From positions 186,001 to 250,000 of the forward strand of contig CP114119.1 of the NCBI GenBank assembly GCA_029959195.1: a stretch of 64,000 nucleotides of DNA, in the 5' to 3' direction. The notes beneath the pieces were generated by a model. It saw only the letters and a list, made by a program, of their open reading frames with translations. It was not told the DNA's origin and did no database searches. Shown piece after piece: positions 1,257 through 59,130 of this stretch (within the stretch, counting starts at the first letter, position 1; each line of letters starts with the position of its first letter). This DNA is from Dictyophora rubrovolvata. Taxonomy: Eukaryota > Basidiomycota > Agaricomycetes > Phallales > Phallaceae. A program made the translations under genes and the position numbers.

Positions 1257-3069
1257 TTAGAGACATTGACTGTACTATATAACGGATAAGAACGCGGTGG
1301 TTTGATTGATCGAGTTTCAATCATGAACTTACGTAGGCGTTGCTGTAAGTGCAAGTGTAAGGAGAAGCGCAGGCGGTGGGTCCAGTCCATCCTAGATTGT
1401 CATGTTATTTACTATCCGTCGCAAAGTGACATGTAAGAGAAAACAAATACCTTCTCCACCACATTGACCAAATTCAGCAGCAGTGCCGCCAGTTGGGGCT
1501 TGGGTAGGTTGCGATGGAGGGATGGAGCTGGAGACTGGGGCGTGAGAAGAGACTGGAGCGTGAGAAGAGACTGGAGAGCTTGGAGCGGAGACTGGAGAGG
1601 AGGAAGCTGGGCTTGAAGACCAACCGGAGGCGGGACAAAGAGGGGAGGCGCCGCTGTACAGTGCAGGTCCGGGGATGGGATACGTGGTCATAGTCTCAGC
1701 GGCTTGGCCGTAGATATCAACAGTGAGACCTGGGTCAGTGTTGCTATAGGCACCGGGGAAGGATACCTATTATGGGAAGTATAGTGTAAGTTCCCGCACG
1801 AAATATTAGTCGTTTACACTTACAAGTTCAGAGGATGAAGGAGCGAGACTCCCTCCATTGGTGATCTATTGATGATAAGTACAACGCTCCTTTGAGAGGC
1901 TAATAAGTAGAATATTTACCGAGAGCTGGGCACATTCTGCGAGAAAAAAATATGGTTCAGGGACTCAGAACTCGCGTTAATTAGCTGAGAACTTACCGGG
2001 GTAGAATCTGAATTGATAGTCCCCACAAAGTCAGTAATAGAATCGCCTTATGGTTATGTCAACTTACTGCTACAAAGATAGTCAGAATCTAAGCATAAGT
2101 ACAGATATAGTCTCGAAGAAGCTTACTGCTGGGAGAGAGTGAAGTGCAATGGTCTCAAAACGGATCATGTAGTTCCCGGTGGGGACATCCTTGGGGATAA
2201 CGGTCGTCCATGAACTATTTTGAACAATCATCACACCATCACCTGTGAAATCTCAGTATCCCTTGTAAAGCAAGTCTAGGTAAAAGAAATATACGCACCC
2301 CAGACCCCATCGAAGACAGTTCCGTTAATCAAACCACACTGGTCTGTACACGTTATCAACGCCGAAATCCGAACCAGGAGATTGTGTTACTAACCGATCT
2401 TGAACTAAATCCGAGATGTAATGTTAGTATCGCATTTTTGATGATCTGAAATATGAATCCCACCCATTGCAAGGTGTTGGAGTTGACAGACGTGCAAGAG
2501 CCTCCCGGACATTGGGCCAAGTAAACGAGCTAGAACCATCGTCAGCGCAACAAGTCTGAATTCGAGAAGATAACCTACCATCGGGCCGAAGGCGTGGGGC
2601 CAGACTAGTATCAACAAATTCATAAACACTTTATTTATTTCAAAAAAGAGCGAATGTTTACCTTGGTTCCAGTAAGCTGTAATAGACGAACCAGCTTCGA
2701 CGGTGGCTGTGAGCTGCAGAGCGCCGGCAGTGCCGTCATCATTGCAGCCTATCTGTGGGTCAGTAGCGTTTTGGATGGGGTTGCTAAGCAAGTGTTAAGA
2801 TGCCTTTATTTTGAGAGTAGAAATTTGAGGAATTACTATGTGGACCAAGGTCTTTCGATTGTGGTTTGACCGACGGGTGTGTTGTAAGGAGCCCATCCCT
2901 CTGAAGAAGGGGGATTTAAAAAATAATCTTCTGCAATTCATCGGAAATAATCCTTACGATACCAGTTTCCGGCATTGGAGTACGCCAAAACACCACCGTG
3001 GGCCGCCACTTTAGCGAGTTGTGAGAAGGTTGCAGTTGCGAGAACTGCTAAAGAGGACAAGGAGAACAT
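1257..3069 (-). CDS. Secreted AA9 lytic polysaccharide monooxygenase with C-terminal CBM1
   Basis: Fifteen exons sum to 1026 nt, 341 aa: 3069-2958, 2900-2837, 2783-2662, 2604-2579, 2529-2464, 2404-2395, 2343-2299, 2242-2127, 2069-2068, 2007-1997, 1936-1920, 1865-1824, 1766-1451, 1391-1333, 1274-1257. A 23-residue signal peptide ends just before His24, which would be mature His1 of the copper histidine brace (HGGVLAYSNAGNWY). The second brace histidine is His103 in WPHAFGP. The axial Gln-x-Tyr is Q188-F-Y190 in QFYPECAQL, matching AA9 spacing. A Ser/Pro/Ala linker follows (about 230-300), then a CBM1 (FGQCGG...[24 protein letters not shown] order, read in pieces). AA9 enzymes oxidatively cleave cellulose or xyloglucan outside the cell. 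The gene is very intron-dense, with exons of 2, 10, 11, 17 and 18 nt. Confidence 0.92.
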
Positions 3070-25056: not shown

Positions 25057-26425
25057 TTATTTAGTTCGCTTGAGCAACCAATCTAACCCTCCAATAAAAT
25101 CGACCTTCTGTTTTTCTGCGGCTTTTAATGTTGGGAAGACTATATGAAATCCATGGGGAAGACCAGGATATCTGCGGCAAGTAGGATTAGAAATGAGGTA
25201 TGTAAAGTAAGGAAAGGTCACATTGTCCAAACGTACATATCAACCTTAGTACGAACACCCGCTTCCTTCAATAACCTCTCATAAAGAAATGCTTCGTCTC
25301 GGAAAGGATCGAGTCCACATATTTGGATGTATGCGGGCGGTAAACCTTCTAATGATTCTGCAAGCAAGGGGGATACATCCGGGTTTGAAGCATTATCCTC
25401 GCCGTGGTAGGATTCTATCATAAATAATCGGTGTTGACAAACATATATGGAAAAACAGAAGCCAATACGGTCTGACTAGCGAACATGAGCACTAAATCTT
25501 TCGTTAAGCTGTATTTATCGGCATCTTGTTCTACCGAGAGAAGTTCAGGTTTGAATCTGTTTTTATCTCAGTCATACAGATGTGCAAAGTGATCGATTGT
25601 ATGGCTGACTTACTTTTCGGGATAAGAATAAGGTGATATGAGGCTTGGTATCACTAACAGCTGTCCAGTTATTATATTCTTCAGTTGTTGATCTTTCAGA
25701 GCTCGGTGAGCGAGTACGGCTGCAATGTTGCCTCCTGCAGATGTATCACCTACGATAACTCCTTTACCTGCGTCCACAGATAGTTCTGACGTATTATTGA
25801 GAGCCTGTCCACAGTTTAAGCGTGTGATTCAATACGTGAAAAGTCATATTACCCATTTGAGGACAGCAAAACTGTCATCGGCTGCCGCTGGGAAAGGGTG
25901 TTCTGGGGCTTTGCGATAGTCACCGCATACGCATGTGGTTCTGGAGTTGATAGCTAAATTACAGGGTAATGGTTCGTCGTTCTCGATAGTGCCTAGCACA
26001 AAACCTGTCGTCGCGACCTTTGAGACAGGAAAAAATGGGGGTATGATCTTGACTATTGCATACATACCTCCGCCAAACATCCAGACCATCAATGGAAAAC
26101 CTTGAGCTTCATTGTCCCGTTTATGAGGGATGTAAGCTTTCACGCGAATTTCTCCGTTCTTTACAGGAATTTTCGTCTCGAGAATGTTTAGAATGTTTGA
26201 ATCTAACGACGGGCCGGAAGAACAAGTGTTAGCATGTATTGAACTTAACTTTAAACAGTACGACGTGCCAATATGTATTGGATTCTCGTTTATTATTGTA
26301 CCGTACGCAGCCTTTGCCTGCTCGCGGAAAATTTGAACAGAGATCACGGGTTTGACTGGAGGAAGATGAGCTGAAAATTCAGCCCACTCTGGATCTGGAA
26401 TCGAGAGGTGAGCGTATTGTGCCAT
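25057..26425 (-). CDS. Alpha/beta hydrolase 3 (HSL/AADAC-like esterase)
   Basis: Third paralogue. Start ATG 26425 (MAQYAHLSIPDPEWAEFSAHLPP), stop at 25057 after LDWLLKRTK. The oxyanion motif is FGGG (VWMFGGGM). The nucleophile motif is GDTSAGGNIA, closer to the family consensus GDSAGG than hydrolases 1 and 2. Asp lies in CGLDPFRDEA and His in YPGLPHGFH. The N-terminal exon reads open through about 100 nt that probably form an intron after GKAAYG-like sequence (donor near 26300, acceptor near 26200); if retained, it adds a low-similarity insertion. Substrate unknown; probably cytosolic. Confidence 0.86.
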
Positions 26426-32047: not shown

Positions 32048-35000
32048 ATGCTTGTTCTCAATCCGGCGACACGCGTCGATCAAATCTTTGCAGAACTCGT
32101 ACAAAGTAAAAAAGCGTCTCATGAGGTTGCCTTAACTGAACTCCGAGATTATGCAAGTTTTATTTAAGTTCACTCGTGAAGGTATTTCTCATAATTTGTC
32201 ATGTAGGTTATCTCCAATGCCAACGGCCAGTGGGAAGAAGACGTCTGGAAACATCTGCTGGATCTCGTTCAGTCTAAAGTTATATCTCGTCAGCTTGCCG
32301 CTGTTTTAGCTATCGGTATGCTTTAATTTTCCCGTTTCCCGTGATTTTCCTTATTGTCTCCTTCCAGATTTGATTTTGGATATCATCAAAGAAGACCCCA
32401 TAGATAATAGGCATAACTTATACCGATTTTATAATCATCTCACCACTATTTTGCAACATGCAACAGACCATAATATCATAAGGACAGCCGCGAAGTTGAC
32501 TGGGAAGCTCGTCAAAGCTAGTGGAGGCGTACTAGGGGATCATTTTCTCGAGGAACATATCCCGCGTTTTCTCGAAATGACTGTCGCCGATAGCGCATCC
32601 TCGTTTGCGGTCGTCCATGTATTAAAGGAATTTTCCATTCATAATCCTCTCTCCTTTTTGTCTCATTTCGCTATCACCTTTCGTTGTATTGCTACTTTTC
32701 TACGCGATCCTCAAGTCCGTCTTTATATTATTATCGTTTGATCCCTTCTTTATGTTGACCATTGTTTTCTATAGATGGAGGTTCGCACCGCATCTGCCGA
32801 ATTTTTTGAGAATCTGCTGGCCGCAATGGGCCCGCACGAGTTAGAGCTGTACCGCACGGCACTGCAATTTTTAGTCCGGCGAGTTCAGCAAGGATTGAAT
32901 TCACTCACTCCTTCAGTACTTCATGGGTCTATTCTGGGCTATCAAGTTCTCTTCCTTTCTCCCGAAAAGGTACGGTGTTTCGGTTTCGGTTATCTTTTTT
33001 CTCTTGCCATCTCTGAATATTCTTTCGCGTGGTTCAGGAGCTCCTGCAATCGGATTATATTGGAACGTGTCAAGCGGTTCTTCGGTTCAGGTCGCATTCT
33101 GATTCTATGATACGAGATAGCGTTATTTCTATTATCCCGTCTCTTGCCAGTTACGATTCCAAAGTCTTCACCGAACAGTTTTTCAGTGTAACAATATCGT
33201 TTCTCATTCAGAGGATTGGTACTACAACTAGCAGTGATGCTCCGACAGGTACCGTAATGTTCTTTAGCCTATTTTTATTACCCGGTTGACTAGGTGACAA
33301 GCTTATCTGTCGATCGGACATCTAACCTCAGTCGTCGGTGAAGATATGGAGCCGTACGTCAATGATATTTTTCAGCGTGTACAGGTTGCCCTCAATAGGC
33401 AAAAGTGAGAGCTTAAATCCATTTTAGCCTTTCCGCGGGTTTCTGAACCAATCATTTTTTTTGACCTAGTGACCGTGGTTCAACTGTGAAACCGGATCAT
33501 ATTTTCAAAGCTCTGAGCTTAATGATTTGTGCCTTAGGTTCGATGCTAGGGCCAATAATCAATAAACACCTCGAGCTGTTTTTCACATGTGGTTTGAGTG
33601 AGGCGTTGATCGAGATGTTGCATATGGCCGTGCGACATATTCCTACCCTTCTGAATCCAATTCAAGGTATTTTTGGGTTATTTTCGTCGTCACCTTATTG
33701 AGTTTCGCTTCCCATAGAGCGACTATTGAATCTCATTTCAATTATATTGAGCGGGCAACCGTTCGTTCCGCCGGGAGCTCGGCACATTCCTGCAAAGGCT
33801 GAACCCGAACCTTTACACGTAAGTAGGGTTCCCAAGGGGTCGGGTTTAATTTTTTTTCCGATTGTGATTAACGAACCACAGTCTTCGTCACAAATCATCT
33901 TGGCGTTGAATGTCCTCAGTCATTTTGACTTCAAGGAGCATGGTTTAAGCGAATTTGTTCTTCAAGCTATTCTTCCGCATCTAAACGACGACGATATCAA
34001 CGCTCGTAAGGGTGCGGCGGTAGCAATTTGCCAGATTTTGTCCCGCGACAGGATTCGATTTCAATCAAGCCAATATGCGCTGGAGATTATCACAGCTGCT
34101 CTGGACAAGTTGCTTTCTGTTGCAATTGTTGACAGCGGTAAGGTATTTAAGAATAAACGACACGCGGTTATCTTATTTTTTTATTGAAATAGATGCATCG
34201 GTTCGTAAAGCCGTTCTCTCTTCCTTGACAGAGAACCTGGATCATCAACTCGCTCAAGGGGACTATATTCGGCTTCTCTTTCTTGCACTGCATGATGAAG
34301 TCGTTGAGAATCGCATTTTGGCTATGGTCATCCTTGGTCGTGTCACCAATCACAATCCAGCACATGTCACTCCACCACTGAAGAGAATGCTGGTTCAGCT
34401 TTTGACTGAGCTCAAGTATTCCATAACAGTGTAAGATCATTTTGTCAACATCATTCATTTACCTCGTCAAAACCGAACTGACACGAGCTAGTCAGAACAA
34501 GGAAGACGCCATACGACTCCTCGCTGCCCTCGTTTCGTCTGCCCATACGGTTGTCGAAAAAGAAGTTCTGGACGTTCTGGACGTTTTACTGGGTTGCTCA
34601 GCAGACTCGAGCGTCGTCGTCAGAACTAACGTTCTTGTCTGTCTTGGAGAGCTCGCTGTTTTGGACTGCAACGAAGGGCTAGCGATGCATGTTGGTCAGA
34701 TTATGAATATCATACTTCCCTCTTTGGAGAGAACGTCACAAATCCGTTCGGCTGCGCTTCATTGCCTGGGAAATATTTGCACGCACATGAGCTATGTGAT
34801 AACACCTATTGAGGATTATCCGCCTTTACTTCCTTTACTGCACGGAATGCGGAAACGCGAACAAAGTGCCGGTGTTAGGCAACAGGTCATCCGAGTAATA
34901 GGTCTTTTGGGAGCTTTAGATCCTGATCGTTACCAGGTTTGGTTCTTTTTCGATATATTTTTCATGGTTCGAAAAGTTTTATTCTTTTATTCTTCTAGAC

Positions 35001-38000
35001 CCGTGTTCAAAAGCTCGTTTTGACTGAACTTCAGCCTGAGTCTATCAACGTCATTCCGGAAACCGATACTCAAGACACCAAGTCTATAGTCGTTGACGAC
35101 CCATATCAAGATAAAGTAATACGACTCTTACTCGATATACTTCAACAGCAAGCTCTTAATAGTCATCACCACCTCGTCGTTCACTGTTTCGTATCAATGG
35201 CTAATGCGAAAGGAGCCAAGTTTGCGCCTGCTATGCCTAAAGTAAATTTTTATCCAATCATCTATCTGCTCAACATAATAACGCTTTGCAACAGATTATA
35301 CCAACTTTGTGTACTGTGATACGAAATTCCTCCAGTTCCTTACAAGGTCATTACCTCGCACAGTTGACCTCTCTCATCAGTACCGTTCGACAACATGTCC
35401 GATCATGCCTAAAAGAAGTCATGGATCTTATCAATGACCTATGGAACGTTACGAATCAAAGACTCGCTCTGATTGTTCTAGTCGAGACCCTGGCCGATGT
35501 TCTCGCAGCTGAAATAGGCAAATATACTGCACAGATGGTCTCGAGGCTGCTGTTAAATCTCCAGGAAGAGAAAACGGAAACGTCTGCTCTTATTCATGCT
35601 AAAACCGTCACGGCTATAGTCGCCTTCGGTCCTAATCTACAAGAACATCTAAACTTGGTTATACCAGTCCTAATATCATGTTTTCGACCCTCGCCACTAC
35701 CATTTACCCTGCGCAAGCAAGCCATCGATTCGCTATCGAAATTATCAAAAAATGTTGATTTATATCCCTACGCCTCACGTATTATTCATGCATTGGAAGA
35801 AGTCATGACAGATAGTGGCCAGTTACGTCAAAGTGTAATTGACGCCTTTTCCACGTTCACTTACACCCTGGGAACGAGCATGATAATTTTTATTCCTTCC
35901 TTGACCAAGGTAAGATTTCGGCCTTCCTCCTCCCTACGTCTATCTTCTTTCCAAAATTTCTAGATTCTTCATGAGAAGAACATTCCAGCCGTAGAATTGT
36001 TGGATCTTTTCTCCCAGATGCTCAAAGGCCATACGATTCAGCAACCTCCGAAAACACAGCGGTATGCTTGAAGTCTGTGTATATTAAGATCAGATTAATT
36101 TTAGTATGCTAGGCCGGCTGAAGTCTTTCCTACTGTGCCTGCTCGCACACCGAATGCTAATCTACTCAAACAAGCTTGGGACGTTTCCCGTGTTTTGAAT
36201 ACCCACGAAGCTTGGATCTCCTGGTTTACAGAACTTTCTGCTCAATTCGTGAAGGAATCACCTTCGGTTTCTCTGCAAGCTTGCATGAATCTTTTTGATG
36301 CCTACCCTCATATTGCCGCCGAATTATTCAGCCCCGCTTTGGCTTCTTGTTGGAAGGACCTCTCGGAACCTTTTCAAGTAAAGTCTATTCCATTGGGCGA
36401 CCAGTCTCAATAAGGCTCTGATCGCTTCATCTTTTAGGAAGATTTCGTACATGTTATCCAGCACGTTGTCTCTATCCCCGCCGTTCCACCCGAAGTCGCC
36501 CATTACATGCTTAACCTTGTGGAGGACATGGAAAGGAACAATACCCCCTTTCGTTTATCCCACGGTCAAATGGCCGAGTATTGTTTCAACCTTAGGGCTT
36601 ATGCAAAAGCTTTGCATCACCGGGAACTTCAATTTTTTCAAGATTTTACGCCGTCAACTATAGAATCTCTTATCGAGATCAACGCCATGTTACGGCAAAG
36701 TGACGCGGCTCTAGGGACGTTGAACCTGGCTCGACAGAACTACGAGATTCGAAATCCTGAGTCGTGGTATGAAAAACTTGGACAGTGGAACGAAGCCCTG
36801 CAGCTCTACCAAGCCATGGATAGCCGCGATTATATGGAAATTGAACGAGCCAATGATTCTTTGCTCGGACAGTTGCGGTGTTTACATGCTTTGGGAGAAT
36901 GGGAACAAGTCACTTCGCTGACTTCTAAAATTTGGGAAGATAGCGATGAGCAATTGCGAAAGCAGCTCGCTCCTTTAGGTGCCGCGGGGGCATGGCAAAT
37001 TGAATCGTGGGATGAATTGGAAAAGTATTACTCTGCGATTGATGCTTCCAATGGAGACCGGTTCTTCTATGAAGCAATCTCCTCTCTTCAAAGGAATCGC
37101 TTGCCGAATGCACTGCTTAATATCACGAAGGCACGGGACTTACTTGATCCGGAGTTTACATCTTTATTGGACGAGAGTCCAGACCGCTTAGACCGGTTCG
37201 AAACGATTATATCTCTTTTACTTTCATTTCTAACTTTTTTAAAGGTTTGCTGTCCAAGCGCAAATGATATCAGAACTTGAAGAACTCGTTCAATACAAAA
37301 AGTATGCTGACCGTCCTCAAAAACAGAAAAGGCTGCGAGAGAGTTGGAAGAAGAGGCAAGACATCCATCTTTTGAAAGGATCTTTCGTTGTTCAATAATG
37401 AGATTAGATTGCTTGGATGTCAAAAGGACGTCAATGTCTGGCAGCGTGTTCTTAAAGTTCGAAGCTTATGCTTGAAGTCAGACGACGACATTGATACTAC
37501 AGTCCAATTCGCCAATCTATGTCGGAAATCAGGCCGCTTTCGAGCCGCCCACCGAGCCATGGAACCTCTAATTCGTTCAGAGGAGCAAGGGGTAAGGATT
37601 GATAATTCGAAAATCGTGTTTCTATACCAATCCCCATTTAGAGCAAAGCTCCACCGCCCATTGTCTACGCTCAGCTAAAAATAATTTGGCATAATGGAGA
37701 ACGTCCAAAAGCGTTTCATTCTTTACGGCGATTTATTCAAGAGTTATCACAGAGTCCCCAATTGGACGATCCAAACACAAAATCTGAGATATCACATGTG
37801 TTATCCAGATGTTACTTGAAACACGGTATCTGGCAAGCCGAGCTGGAAAGCGGATTGACGCTGGTATGTTTTATTATCGCATGTTTGGCACATCTGATTT
37901 GTATAAAAGTCTAATGCGGCGTCCATATTAACTTCTTACCATTTTGCAACTGTACATGATCCGCAATGGTCCAAAGCGTGGCATACGTGGGCTCTTGCTA

Positions 38001-41303: not shown

Positions 41304-42641
41304 ATGGCACAATACGCACATCTTTCGACACCAGACCCAGAATGGGCTGAAATTTCCGCCCACCTCACCCCCGCCAAACCTGTAGAGTCTATTCAGACCT
41401 ATCGCGAGGAAGTAATAAAGTATGGAAGGATGACTGCACAAGCGAATACGGAGACTGCGTGTACGTTATCTCGTCTGTTACAGTTGTTCTCGTTTAGTCC
41501 GACGTTTTTATCTACTCAGCCCCAGAGACACTAAACGTTATTGAAACAAAGATTCCTGTGGAGAATGGCGAAATCCGGGTAAAGGCGTATATTCCTCGCG
41601 CGCAAGAAGGCGAGACCCAAGGATATCCCTTGTTAGACTGGATGTATGGTGGAGGTAGGTATACAACATAATGATAGTCAAAGATTGCTGCCGACTCCGA
41701 CATGAATAACCATTAGGATTCGTCATTGGAATAATCGAAAACGATGAGCCATTTCTTCGAAGATTGGCTTTTCACTGTAGGATTGTATGCGTGTGTGGAG
41801 ATTATCGCAAAGCACCGGAATATCCGTTCCCAATTCCGGTTAACGACAACTACGCAGTCCTTAAATGGGTAATGTAGCTGTCTTTATATAATGATTTATG
41901 CGCTCTAAAAGTCGACCAGGCTCTTAGTAATACATCTGAACTCTCCGTAGATGCGTCCAAAGGGGTTATTGTGGGCGGAGCATCTGCGGGAGGCAATTTT
42001 GCAGCTGTGCTGGCACATCGTGCTTTGAAAGACCCCCAGCTTAAGAATGTGATAACCGGGCAGTTTCTTGTAATGCCAACTGTCATATCACTTCGTGCTT
42101 ATCCTGAGAAGTAAGTCAATATACTAGTAGCAACTCTTATGTTCATATGACCACGACGAAACAGGTTCAAGTCTGAACTCCTTTCGGTGGATGAAGATGC
42201 TGATAAATACTGTTTAACGAAAAACCAAATACTCGCCTTCAGCAGTAAGAAGCATACTTAGTCCTAGTGTCTTTCTCAGATGTATATTTTAGAGGCTTAC
42301 CATACTGAGGATGAGGCCGCAAATCCCGAAGTTTCTCCTGCGCTTGCAGAATCATTTGAGGGTTTACCACCTGCATATATTCAAATTTGCGGACTCGATC
42401 CTCTTCGGGATGAAGGGTTTCTTTATGAAAGGTTATTGAAGGAAGTAGGTGTTTCTACTAGAGTTGATGTGTATGTTTTTAATGTTTGATTTCCCCTGAA
42501 ATTTCTCGATTAATTATTTTGCCAAGGTACCCTGGCCTTCCCCACGGATTTCCTGTGTTTTTTCCAAATCTGACGGCCAGTAAAAAACAAGGCATTGATT
42601 TCATTCAAGGATTACAGTGGCTGCTTAAGCGGATTGAGTAG
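41304..42641 (+). CDS. Alpha/beta hydrolase 4 (HSL/AADAC-like esterase)
   Basis: Fourth paralogue, plus strand. Start MAQYAHLSTPDPEWAEISAHL, very like hydrolase 3. Exons follow the family pattern with introns near 41461, 41656, 41869, 42110, 42246 and 42467. Motifs: YGGG oxyanion strand (LDWMYGGG), nucleophile GGASAGGNFA, Asp in CGLDPLRDEG, His in YPGLPHGFP; it ends with LQWLLKRIE. In LLDWMYGG the usual aromatic/Val before Trp is Asp. Probably cytosolic; substrate unknown. Followed head-to-tail by hydrolase 5 with a 259-nt gap. Confidence 0.87.
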
Positions 42642-44909: not shown

Positions 44910-46089
44910 ATGTCTCAGCCAAACGAATCAAAGCTCTTGGACACTTATGCGATACTACGTACACTCGACCCATCCCTCTATAGTATCGCTGAAGACGAGG
45001 CCAGAATTTTAAAGGAATGTACTGGAATTAAGGACGATGAAGATTTGAAGCAACATATTTTTCAAATTCAAGCTGAAGCATTTGCTGTGAGGCTTTGAAC
45101 TCCTTTAATGATCATTTGTTGTGTAAATTCATGCTTTCATTTAAAATTAGGTCTTTCCATACCCTTGCATCCGAAGATTCGCATTCATTGAGTTAGTCCA
45201 GTTAAAGGTGTATACACGGGTGGTTTATCTCTTACATATCTGACAGCTCGCCATTACCCAGAAACGCGGATTATCAGGCTATTTTGGAGTTGGTAAAAAC
45301 ACGAGAGAGCGCGATCCTGTTGGACATAGGCTGCGGGTGTACGTGGTACCGTATTATCCTTACTTTCCGGGACACTGTCCGACAGCCCTTCTGTTTTTAG
45401 TTGGAAACGACGCACGAAGAGCTATACACGACGGTTTTCCCTTGCGGAACGTTATATGCAGCGACCTTCGCAAAGGTGGAAAGGCATTAATTCTCGGCTG
45501 CAAAGCGGTTGCTTATTAAATGGTAATAGGGTTCTTCGATATTGGTCATAAGCTCTACAAGACAACACCGGAGACTTTTCCGCTCGCATTTTTCGAAGGC
45601 GACATATTCCAAGCCGAATTCACCACGAATATTGATTCTGAATCTACTACCAATGTTGTCGATCCCGTAGCGAACGCACCTATCCCAGATCTGCACACGC
45701 TGAAAAACATAGGTCAGCTCAGAAACAAAATCAGCGTCATTAACACATCCGCTTTCTTTCACCTATTCGATCATGACAAGCAACGCGAGTTAGCACATAT
45801 TTTGAGTAACCTTCTATCTCCTCAACCAGGCTCAATAATCTTGGGTAGTCAAGGCGGAGCTCTTACATCGACAATTTTGCCATCACATATAAGTGGTGTC
45901 ATTGGACTACACAGTCCTGAAACGTGGAAAGAATTGTGGACTGGTACTGATGGACCGTTCAAGCCGGATGATGTGGAGGTTCGCGCGTATACCGAGTCAT
46001 TCTCTCTAGAAAAATTGGGGATCTCGTCGATCGACAATCCTGATGCTGCTAGGGGATATTGGCTTTTCTGGAGTATAAAACTTATATAA
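44910..46089 (+). CDS. SAM-dependent methyltransferase A
   Basis: Start MSQPNESKLLDTYAILRTLD (44910); stop at 46089. After exon 1 (ends near 45085) the chain runs FPYPCIRRFAFIE, then SPLPRNADYQAILEL, then the SAM-binding motif I LLDIGCG-VGNDARRAIHDG, NVICSDLRKG (motif II region), EFFDIGHKLYKTTPETFPL, a motif-IV-like 'INTSAFFHLFDHDKQRELAHIL' and a SPQPGSIILGSQGG strand. This layout is typical of the fungal methyltransferases of the AusD/Trt5 kind used in meroterpenoid pathways; the family link is by eye. The intron around 45190-45250 is not resolved to the base. It converges on methyltransferase B. Confidence 0.8.
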
Positions 46090-52356: not shown

Positions 52357-53456
52357 TCAAACCCTCTTTAGACTCCACTCCAGAAACGTAATGATTGCAG
52401 TAGATTTACCAACTGCCGCATTTCCTATATCAGCAGGCAAACTTGATTCCAATACTTGTGCATCCACCTCTTCAGGTTTAAAGGGGCCTTTATCTCCCAT
52501 CCAAAGGTCCCTCCAAGCTGAGACGGAATACGACCAAGCACATCCAACTGCATTCCTGAAATCCCATTCATTTATACCTGATTTCGTGGCCAGTTGCTTG
52601 CCTACTATTATAGAACCACTTGACGGGGACAAAAGACTTGCAAAAATATGGGCAAGCCGTTGTTGTTTTTCAGGCGGGAACAGGTGAATAACGGACGAGG
52701 CGTGTAACACCGAGACGCGACTGTGCAAAGGGGCCAACGAAGTGAGCGAGCGTAATGGAGATAAAGCTTCTGTGTTCGGCCGGGTTTCAAAAAGTTGGGA
52801 TGCAAGATCAAATACATCTCCTGGAATAAACGAAAAAGGGTAAGTGTCAGGAGTTGTTCTGAATAGCTGATGCCCGAGATCGTAGTATTCTATATTGAAC
52901 GCGTTACAAGACTTTCTAGCCGAGTGTGCTATCATACCGTTTTGGATATCTGACGCAACGACATTTTCGAGAGGATAGCCATCAGCTATCAATTTACGAA
53001 GGTCGGTTCCGACTAAAAATGATGTATTTGGGTGCTCCGAGAACCTTAAATATCTGACTCACAAGCGCATCCAATCTCCAAGTATATGGCATCAGGCCGC
53101 TCTTTACCGAGCTTCAGGATGTCTTTGTAAATCCGATAATGACAGAGCTGGAAGCTACAAAACGACCCTGATTAGACGTGGTGGTGTTGAGGGGCTATCC
53201 TGTACTGACTTGAGGAAATAAAAAGCACGGATACATGGGTACGGAAATATCTAATTATGAGACAACTTAGCAATCATGCTATGGGCATTGTACGGGATGG
53301 TCATACTGAATAGGCTCGAGCTTGAATTCCACAGATGTGTTTCCGTAGCTCTTCATCATTGTTTATCCGAGTTGCTAGCTTGAAGAATTCCTTTTCTTCC
53401 TCTTTGATTGAATAGACAGATTCGTCGACCGGAGGGGCAGGTACGACTGGAGACAT
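52357..53456 (-). CDS. SAM-dependent methyltransferase C
   Basis: Close duplicate of B on the same strand. Start ATG 53456 (MSPVVPAPPVDESVYSIKEEEKEFF), stop at 52357 after LEWSLKRV. Motif I region KERPDAIYLEIGCA, then VGTDLRKLIADGYPLENVVASDIQN, EYYDLGHQLFRTTPDTYPF, 'VLHASSVIHLFPPEKQQRLAH', PSSGSIIVGKQ. The B/C similarity extends into introns (the same 'aaaaagcgcggatacatggg' type sequence lies in both), so the duplication is fairly recent. No break is visible. Confidence 0.82.
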
Positions 53457-56138: not shown

Positions 56139-59130
56139 TTAATTCATTGTATTAAACCCTCCAGTGCTGAGACTAGGAGGTAAGTTGCTTTGTCCAGTGC
56201 CCCAAGAACTACCCGTGCTAGACCCCATCACGAGCTCCAAAGTACCTCCACTAAGGAAGAACTCATGCGAAATCCAATTCTTAGTGTAAGAAACCCCGTT
56301 CAACTTTGCCGATTGGATGTAAATATTTTCAGACGAGAAATTGTCAGAAATGATGGTGGCGATAGCTCCAGTTGCTTGATTCTGGAATGTGATTTTAGGG
56401 AAGAATGGTCGGCACAGTAGGTATGTGTCTTGTCCTGCTACGGGATAGAAGCCTAAGTGCGTCCAAACCACATATGCTGTTCGACAGTTGTTATATAATT
56501 GAGCAAAAAAAAACATTCAACGAAAAACATACCTCCCATGGCACCACTGTCATCGTTACCCGGCAAGCCGTTGGTCCTATGAAATGGTCAGAATAGATGG
56601 TAGTAAACGTCGATTAAGATAGGTGATTACGAGGTGTTGAAGAACTGGTTCAAAATTGAATTGACCCTATCGACCGTTTTAACTGGCTGACCGACGTAAT
56701 TGTACAAGAATGTAGGGACTACACAGAAATGAGTTAAATAGCTGACTATGATTTATTTAGACTATACTTACGGAAACCCGGCTCATCACCTATTGTTCAA
56801 ATAAACGCAGTTAAGTATTTACGAATTTGAAAAAGAGAGATTAGCCCGCTTTACCAATGTCCTGGAAACAAATCAACTGACGATCATTTCAGGCAAGGTG
56901 AAAATATTCTTACATGATATCCAGCAGCGAAGAAGGTATCCAGGCGATTACTATCATAAATATCAGTATAGTCATTTCTCAAAGAAATAAAAAGGTTTAA
57001 TCACCTGAACGTTTCCGGTCCGCCCATCAGCGTGACTAACCTAGCCATATCATGTGGAACATAGAAACTATATTCCCAAGAACTGGCTTCATAGAATTCA
57101 CCACCGGTAGAGAACTACAAAAAATGCAACATAAGCGTCTAAGAAGACGATGCAACGAAAACAGCCGTACCAAGAAGCAGTCATCGTGTCCGAAAACAGG
57201 ACTGCAATGTGTGGGATTGAAGACACCCCCAATGTCGAATGCCGGATTAATGAACCAAGATCCATTCGCGTTCCGGGGTTGTATGAAACCGCTAAAGCCA
57301 GTATTAGTTACATTCGGGTTCCACAGGTTCACCCAGTCGCCAGAAGCCTTAGTGTATTGGTCATAGAGATCCTGTCTTCCTAAGCCTCTTGCTATCAGAG
57401 CAATGCTAAAGTCGTTATACACGTATTCTAATAACCGAGATGCACTCCTGTGATAAGGATTGAATGAACCATCAGCACGCGTGTACATGTAGACTTTCAA
57501 ACTCACCTCGTGTTAGGCCCCTCATTTGGAGGATTATCGCTGGTATCATTAACAGGTACATAACCGTGGATTCTGCGTGCTTCAATACCGCCACGACCCT
57601 GGACACTGAAGTCCCCTTCTATGGTCGCATCTTTGATGACGGCCTCCAACCCAGTCTCCCAGTCGATACCGTTCTTGATGTTCTTGACGAAGGAGTCGGA
57701 CAGAATAGAGTCCACATTTGAACCTCCTTGAGTGAAACCTTTGTCCAAAGACATTCGACAGTCGGGTAGCCACCCGGTATGTCGATAGATATCGATGAGA
57801 GCGCGGATGATTTCAGCTTGAGCTGTGGGTGCTACAATGGCCCAGAGAGGGTGGACGTCTCGGAAGGAATCCCTGCAGAATGGTTAGATATCGAGATGTT
57901 GGTGATTCGACTAAGACCCATACCATATACAGTAGAAGCTATCATAGTATGGTTCGGTTGACACCCAAAGCGGATTGTCGCCGGTTATGTTGGTGGGAGA
58001 GATATGAGTGCGGTAAAGAGAGCTCCAAAAGAGCTGTTGTTCATCTTCGCTTACACCCGTTGCATCAACAGTTATGGTACCTAAAACGTCGTTCCATGTG
58101 TTGCTAACAAAGACTCGTCAGTTGTATTGCGTATACCAAGAGGTGAATCTTCGTACCGAGCTGCAGTCATGACAGAATCAAAAGCACTCAGATCGGGAAT
58201 CTCTTCTTCGGCATAAGCACAAGCTTTAGCCGTGCTTGTCCATGATATTCCCATTCGTACCCTAAGAACATTATCCGCCTCTGGCTTGAATGACAAGCCG
58301 AAACCAGAAGGAGCCACTGTCAAAGAAGTGTTGAAACCCGAAGCTGAGACTTCTTGGATAGCACCGTTATTGGAAAAGACAGCTTGTTGGAAAGTAGGGC
58401 CATCGAAACAAAAGAAAACTTGGTAGCTTCCTTCACCAAAAGAGGGCAGATATTCTCCGCTTCCAGTGATACGTGTTCCGGTGCTGGTGGTAGTTAACGT
58501 CGCCAAGCCGACACCTTGGAAGCTACGCGACAAATCGGTTGTAACGTCCAGGAGCAAGAGCTGATCAGTTGTTCCTTGGGGATAGGTAAACTGGTGCAGA
58601 GCAGCGTGTTGAGTCACAGTGACTTCCGCGGTTATGTTGTTGTTCAAAGGAATGTTGACTATAGCAAATTTTCAGTGAGCAAGCATGTCGACAGTGGAGA
58701 GAGAAGGAAATAATGACTGACAATAGCCAGGTGCTGACGTTGGATTCCCATGTTGAATACCACGAGCATCAGGATCAAAGTTGCAGTTTGCCAGGTTGTT
58801 ACTGGCACAGTCCTGGTTGGTAAGAGGTAAAAGCGGAAAGTTCCCCAACGAAGCACCTCCACCAGTTCCATCATCGTGCAGCTGTGAAATGCCATTTATA
58901 GGTGAACCATCGCTGACGTAGCCGCCCTGGTTGTCGTCAGATAGACTGTCCGCGACAACCTTGACAGAGCCGTAGGGTAAGGTAGCGCCTGCAAAGACAT
59001 GTCCTCCATTTTTCGTGCCTATGAACGTATTAACGAATTGAGAGGGGTCTGCACCGCTACCGATTGATGCTGCGTTGCTTGCAACGCTCAACGAAACAAG
59101 AGCTGAGAAGATTGCTGTCAGCCTCAGCAT
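56139..59130 (-). CDS. Secreted GH92 alpha-mannosidase
   Basis: Start ATG 59130 (MLRLTAIFSALVSLSVASNAAS, a signal peptide); stop at 56139. The first exon carries FVNTFIGTKNGGHVFAGATLPYGSVKV in pieces, typical of the GH92 N-terminal beta-sandwich. Later exons give GISWTSTAKACAYAEEEIP, FWSSLYRTHI, the DSFRDVHPLW catalytic-domain motif, 'TGWLPDCRMSLDKGFTQGGSNVDSIL'-type sequence in order, YNDFSIALIARGLG, WEYSFYVPHDM, GLPGNDDSGAMGAYVVWTHLGFYPV and a C-terminal sandwich. GH92 enzymes are calcium-dependent exo-mannosidases acting on N-glycans or fungal mannans, outside the cell. Length fits the family. Many short introns; exact ends were not all fixed. Confidence 0.92.

Follow-up and report, generated by a model that had tools for sequence, protein, structure and literature searches.

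A predicted two-nucleotide exon in the active-site glutamine codon of an AA9 LPMO gene of Dictyophora rubrovolvata

Can a coding exon of only two nucleotides be a genuine part of a fungal gene, or is it the residue of a gene model fitted around damaged sequence? The question is raised by an AA9 LPMO gene of the basidiomycete Dictyophora rubrovolvata, which lies in a stretch of 64,000 nt (positions 186,001 to 250,000 of contig CP114119.1, assembly GCA_029959195.1). This whole stretch is referred to here as the window, and positions are given in its own numbering. The initial annotation, made from the DNA letters, divided the gene into 15 exons, one of which consisted of the dinucleotide CA. Here, that proposal is examined against the splice signals, the reading frame, a solved relative, the AA9 paralogs of the same genome, and shuffled sequence.

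The AA9 gene and its protein

The gene and a first, less extreme example of its short exons are as follows.

1257..3069, minus strand: AA9 LPMO gene with a C-terminal CBM1; 15 exons, 1026 nt, 341 aa
2395..2404, minus strand: exon 6, 10 nt, a further micro-exon of the gene (FKI), given by the splice model and by spliced alignment

When the 15 exons were located in the raw sequence and joined, the claimed length and frame were reproduced, and the sole stop codon was the terminal one. The protein matches the Pfam AA9 profile over residues 24-234 with 191.1 bits in a profile search, against a cut-off of 27.8, covering profile positions 1-203 of 207. A second match, to Pfam CBM_1, spans residues 310-337 (50.4 bits). 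By eye, the protein begins with a signal peptide-like stretch followed by His1. Among solved structures, 5nns is the closest relative, with 275.8 bits and identity at 128 of 223 aligned residues (57%); we take it to be an AA9 of the HiLPMO9B type. In mature numbering, the protein carries an N-terminal His1, His80, Gln165, and Tyr167; presumably these include the N-terminal His (His1), the second His of the brace (His80), and the conserved active-site Gln (Gln165). In 5nns, as in the window protein, the WPH motif has its His at residue 80 and QFYPEC has its Gln at residue 165. Residues 165 and 167 of the window protein are those first assigned to the Gln and Tyr. Tyr occupies the axial copper position in AA9 (PMC6771041). 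Both terms, HiLPMO9B and 5nns, occur in PMC6124812. The window gene thus has in common with 5nns its protein family and copper-site residues; unlike 5nns, it carries a CBM1 and has one residue fewer between a conserved His and Gln165 (a spacing of 5 versus 6).

All 14 introns of the gene are GT-AG and measure 49-60 nt. Three exons are tiny, at 10 nt (2404-2395), 2 nt (2069-2068), and 11 nt (2007-1997). At the join of exons 3 and 4 (near 2604, minus strand), the protein reads NQVWPH, one residue more before the second copper His than in 5nns (NQWPH). Since the model of the paralog L019 also has an extra residue here (NNPWPH), a splice error confined to the window gene is improbable.

Other features were observed elsewhere in the window. 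Pieces of open reading frame at 34442-37280 (plus strand) match mTOR_dom and FAT and are probably exons of a TOR kinase gene; a GH92 N-terminal domain lies at 58081-58647 (minus strand) and an Abhydrolase_3 fragment at 25844-26425 (minus strand). The open reading frames 45520-46089 (plus strand) and 52357-52992 (minus strand) have short stretches in common, e.g., KLYKTTPETFPLAFFEGDIF and QLFRTTPDTYPFSFIPGDVF, and look related; by eye they are perhaps methyltransferase-like, with no Pfam match at 0.001.

Splice anatomy at the glutamine codon

The region between exons 8 and 11 is composed of the following features.

2127..2242, minus strand: exon 8, 116 nt, ending ...LHSLPA in phase 0
2070..2126, minus strand: intron 8, 57 nt, with gtaagc donor, CTGAC branch-like site, and ttgtag acceptor
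2068..2069, minus strand: micro-exon CA, 2 nt, bases 1-2 of the CAA codon of Gln165
2008..2067, minus strand: intron 9, 60 nt, with gtaagt donor, CTGAC branch-like site, and ttcag acceptor
1997..2007, minus strand: exon 10, 11 nt, ATTCTACCCCG, base 3 of Gln165, then Phe, Tyr167 (the axial copper-ligand position), and Pro
1920..1936, minus strand: exon 11, 17 nt, completing Glu, then CAQLS

The exon ends (2127, 2069-2068, and 2007-1997) and both intron lengths are those originally proposed. Exon 8 closes with ...CTC CCA GCA and exon 10 opens with A TTC TAC CCC G. Between them, the micro-exon is preceded by ...ctttgtag and followed by gtaagt, such that the signals are canonical on both sides (ttgtag/CA/gtaagt) and the introns on either side are of normal size. 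The A of the branch-like CTGAC lies 13 and 24 nt from the end of introns 8 and 9, respectively. With CA included, the translation reads ...ALHSLPAQFYPECAQLS..., giving QFYPECAQL as had been claimed, and the conserved Gln is encoded, again as claimed, by CA and the first nucleotide of exon 10. The joined sequence predicted around the micro-exon is ...CTCCCAGCA-CA-ATTCTACCCCG-AATGTG..., and the peptide predicted across the joint is LHSLPAQFYPECAQL.

It is very probable that CA is a real, constitutive coding exon and that the two short introns beside it are removed separately; intron 8 was likely gained or moved. Splicing of short fungal introns is usually by intron definition. Introns 8 and 9, which would be complete short introns two bases apart, each having a donor, a branch-like site, and an acceptor to itself, may likewise be excised separately by intron definition, with either order leaving normal signals. 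Removal of intron 8 first would leave GCACA/gtaagt, while removal of intron 9 first would leave ttgtag/CAATTC. Because both intermediates are ordinary sites, sequential removal would be possible, though simultaneous binding is probably not. The intronic gtaagt may compensate for the absent exon bases. Completion of the CAA codon by exon 10 would then restore the frame into Tyr167.

Alternative structures and chance

Inclusion of the micro-exon is probably constitutive, since all four faulty forms tested (CA skipped, intron 8 retained, intron 9 retained, and both retained) run into an early stop. With ...CCAGCA joined directly to ATTCTACC, the translation reads ILPRMCPAL and is predicted to stop at codon 209, for a product of 208 codons; retention of intron 8, alone or with intron 9, is predicted to give a stop at codon 202, and retention of intron 9 alone a stop at codon 189. 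These same stops would suit a regulated switch, in which inclusion yields an LPMO and skipping or retention yields a degraded transcript, thereby tuning LPMO output, and alternative splicing of AA9 genes has been reported in Gloeophyllum and Aspergillus niger. Such regulation, which would add to constitutive splicing as the best explanation rather than exclude it, is unlikely given that both donors look strong and that shuffled sequences fold as stably as the RNA of 2150-1997 (z +0.86; 162 of 200 shuffles at least as stable). In that fold, no exon-looping structure of the pre-mRNA was found beyond chance.

Less probable still is a pseudogene, or an assembly or sequencing error, in which two bases were lost near the donor of exon 8, a single intron of 119 nt remained, and the placement of CA between AG and GT is coincidental. 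The role of coincidence was gauged by dinucleotide shuffling of the 119-nt stretch, repeated 1000 times with the first and last six bases fixed. QFYPECAQL was regained in 35 of the 1000, and the best shuffle scored 90.9 against a native local score of 91.9; these results would accord with a coincidental CA, as would the loop before Gln, which is one residue shorter than in 5nns. However, not one of the 1000 shuffles reached the native score (mean 64.3, sd 9.9), and the remaining frame, the CBM1, and the stop codon are all intact. Moreover, an intron lacking the micro-exon would measure 119 nt, around twice the length of every other intron of the gene; its 14 introns as modelled measure 49-60 nt, and the 34 introns modelled in paralogs are all shorter than 119 nt, at 48-95 nt. 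Lastly, one paralog (L016, below) independently has an intron at the edge of the micro-exon. The signal motif itself, YAG-NN-GTRAGT, is estimated to occur roughly 0.0015 times per 119 nt of one strand, and with CA inside at about 1/16 of that rate; the window holds two copies, which is no enrichment over the 1.58 expected (46 of 100 shuffles hold two or more), and thus the motif alone proves nothing. At the level of sequence, the case for the predicted exon is carried by frame, homology, and intron length.

Homology was assessed with a purpose-written spliced protein-to-DNA aligner that chooses introns freely and uses simple, untrained splice scores. With 5nns as the sole query, the aligner returned the exon boundaries of the initial annotation over the aligned part, including the 2-nt exon, and this exon was kept at intron penalties of 6, 9, 12, 15, and 18 in the region 2300-1641 with both 5nns and the paralog L019 as queries. 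Masking the donor of the micro-exon lowered the best score from 264.1 to 217.0 (-47.1) with the 5nns query and from 271.1 to 225.0 (-46.1) with the L019 query; the solution then chosen gave up part of exon 8 as well as the Gln. Splice structures were also enumerated with the outer exon ends fixed, allowing at most two introns, each with a GT or GC donor and a minimum length of 20 nt. Exon 10 was kept in every enumerated structure, and the aligner, which was free to skip this exon, did not do so. Full frames were obtained for 1 single-intron and 62 two-intron structures, 23 of the latter being GT-AG with both introns at least 40 nt long. Nine of these 23 keep QFYPEC, structures with a 2-nt exon also number nine, and only the proposed structure keeps exon 8 whole. 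Under the fixed exon ends of the enumeration and with the donor masked in the aligner, frame and motif need CA and no canonical alternative appears. The assertion that a 2-nt exon is required therefore holds for GT-AG structures with introns of at least 40 nt, among which no further solution retains both exon 8 and QFYPEC, and the spliced alignments agree. The sole single-intron full frame in the enumeration, a longer non-canonical GC-AG intron (2094-2008) that would give a longer loop, ...LPAVSFFETISVLIFYPEC, is highly improbable, as its GCTTAG donor departs widely from the GCAAGT-type consensus of GC donors, and as it bypasses the gtaagc donor and replaces the conserved Gln with Ile. The two-nucleotide exon is confirmed as a gene-model prediction.

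Paralogs, other ultra-short exons, and a possible origin

At least six further AA9 loci, grouped from 13 Pfam search matches, are present in the genome (28.2 Mb, 11 contigs). Their models, built with the purpose-written aligner, comprise the aligned part only and have uncertain ends. L019, the paralog most similar to the window gene by alignment score, encodes HTANQPQFYP within one exon, and it is one of four paralogs (with L014, L015, and L017) that read through at the Gln site. In L016, an intron interrupts CA/A TTC, the position and phase of intron 9 and thus the downstream edge of the micro-exon, while in L018 an intron lies one base later (CAA/TTC). None of the six paralog models has an intron at the position of intron 8, and none has an exon shorter than 8 nt, let alone one of 2 nt. 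The introns of L016 and L018, set beside the four read-throughs, place intron 9 at a site that other AA9 genes use as well. A tree of eight rows, rooted at its midpoint for drawing only, united the window gene, L019 with 5nns, and L014 with L015 against L016-L018 (100/97); the order within this group of five is unresolved. Judging from seven genes in one genome, intron 9 may be old and have been lost several times or may have been gained in parallel, and intron 8 looks like a newer, extra intron two bases upstream of it. Two further observations concern these genes. Compared with its L019 counterpart, intron 10 (junction at 1997, minus strand) is situated one base further downstream (CCCCG/AATG versus CCC/GAATG), which looks like a one-base shift. 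In L014 and L015 (on one contig, C2, near 175.6 kb and 149.5 kb), the motif reads AEFYPSC, with Glu for the conserved active-site Gln, and the models contain few introns.

The likely origin of the micro-exon is the gain of intron 8, or its shift, to a place two bases upstream of intron 9, which itself is situated at the paralog-used site. Tentatively, it may have been born by intron gain proper, with a new intron inserted two bases upstream of the AA9-family site and isolating two-thirds of a catalytic codon. One potential source of a new intron, tandem duplication, was considered on account of a direct repeat.

2122..2130, minus strand: direct repeat AGCAGTAAG, 9 bp, copy 1, across the exon 8 donor
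2063..2071, minus strand: direct repeat AGCAGTAAG, copy 2, across the micro-exon and its donor

A third copy in the window lies on the plus strand at 42241. Introns 8 and 9 do not resemble each other in their bodies (a local score of 14, matched by 24% and 22% of shuffles), and a simple tandem duplication would break the frame; this source was rejected. The best of 26 intron comparisons paired intron 8 with intron 11 (3% of shuffles as good) and intron 9 with intron 13 (2%), which is unremarkable for 26 comparisons. Origin from a repeat family was likewise rejected, the 141-nt stretch 2140-2000 matching only itself in the genome in a search that skips very common words. No relatives were confirmed in viral contigs.

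The initial annotation placed a 2-nt exon at the extreme low end for any eukaryote. This is fair, but shorter exons exist, Arabidopsis and Fusarium both having documented exons of 1 nt. In Fusarium CYP621A, a 1-nt exon, called by its authors the first for a fungal gene, was shown in 20 orthologues and in RNA reads, and an origin by ‘base loss plus cryptic exon rescue’ was proposed; the same report cites exons of 2-5 bp for Arabidopsis, Drosophila, and humans (PMC12940212). Like the window gene, CYP621A is fungal and has an ultra-short exon that keeps the frame within a conserved motif. The arguments are also alike, resting on an apparent intron of double length (139 nt in CYP621A, 119 nt in the window gene), a phase clash, and an uninterrupted relative that serves as a length marker. 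CYP621A differs in that its exon is of one base rather than two, it is an ascomycete P450, and it is accompanied by RNA reads (PMC12940212), whereas the AA9 case is known from genome sequence. Among plants, Arabidopsis APC11 has a 1-nt exon (PMC4674806), and 1-nt microexons of APC11 and VPS55 are found across land plants, those of VPS55 with conserved GTRAGT donors (PMC8831610). Such exons resemble that of the window gene in restoring the frame and, for VPS55, in the GTRAGT donor, but they differ in being experimentally validated, long-conserved exons of plants (PMC4674806, PMC8831610). Tiny exons between introns, as in the window gene, are also described for other fungi: P450 genes of Phanerochaete chrysosporium have a shortest exon of 6 bp and introns often of 45-55 bp (PMC1184071), Tuber nank genes contain codon-sized, alternatively spliced microexons (PMC4986451), and a microexon of Trichoderma Xlr2 acts as a regulatory switch (PMC11121469). 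These differ from CA in being of whole-codon or regulatory type. The open-licence literature, searched mostly at the level of titles and the starts of abstracts, yielded no description of a 2-nt exon from any AA9 gene or any basidiomycete, nor of any micro-exon in AA9 genes.

Gene finders and read mappers readily overlook exons of this size (PMC8831610, PMC12940212), and AA9 genes with such exons would therefore be annotated as frameshifted or as truncated before the copper-site Tyr. In the present gene model, an exon edge splits a catalytic codon, and the enzyme family concerned is of industrial importance. If intron gain is the true origin, it would differ from that proposed for Fusarium CYP621A, and the exon would possibly be among the shortest in a basidiomycete. 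The same genome also contains paralogs that are uninterrupted at this site or carry one of the two introns, and in combination with them the gene provides a testable history for the origin of an ultra-short exon.
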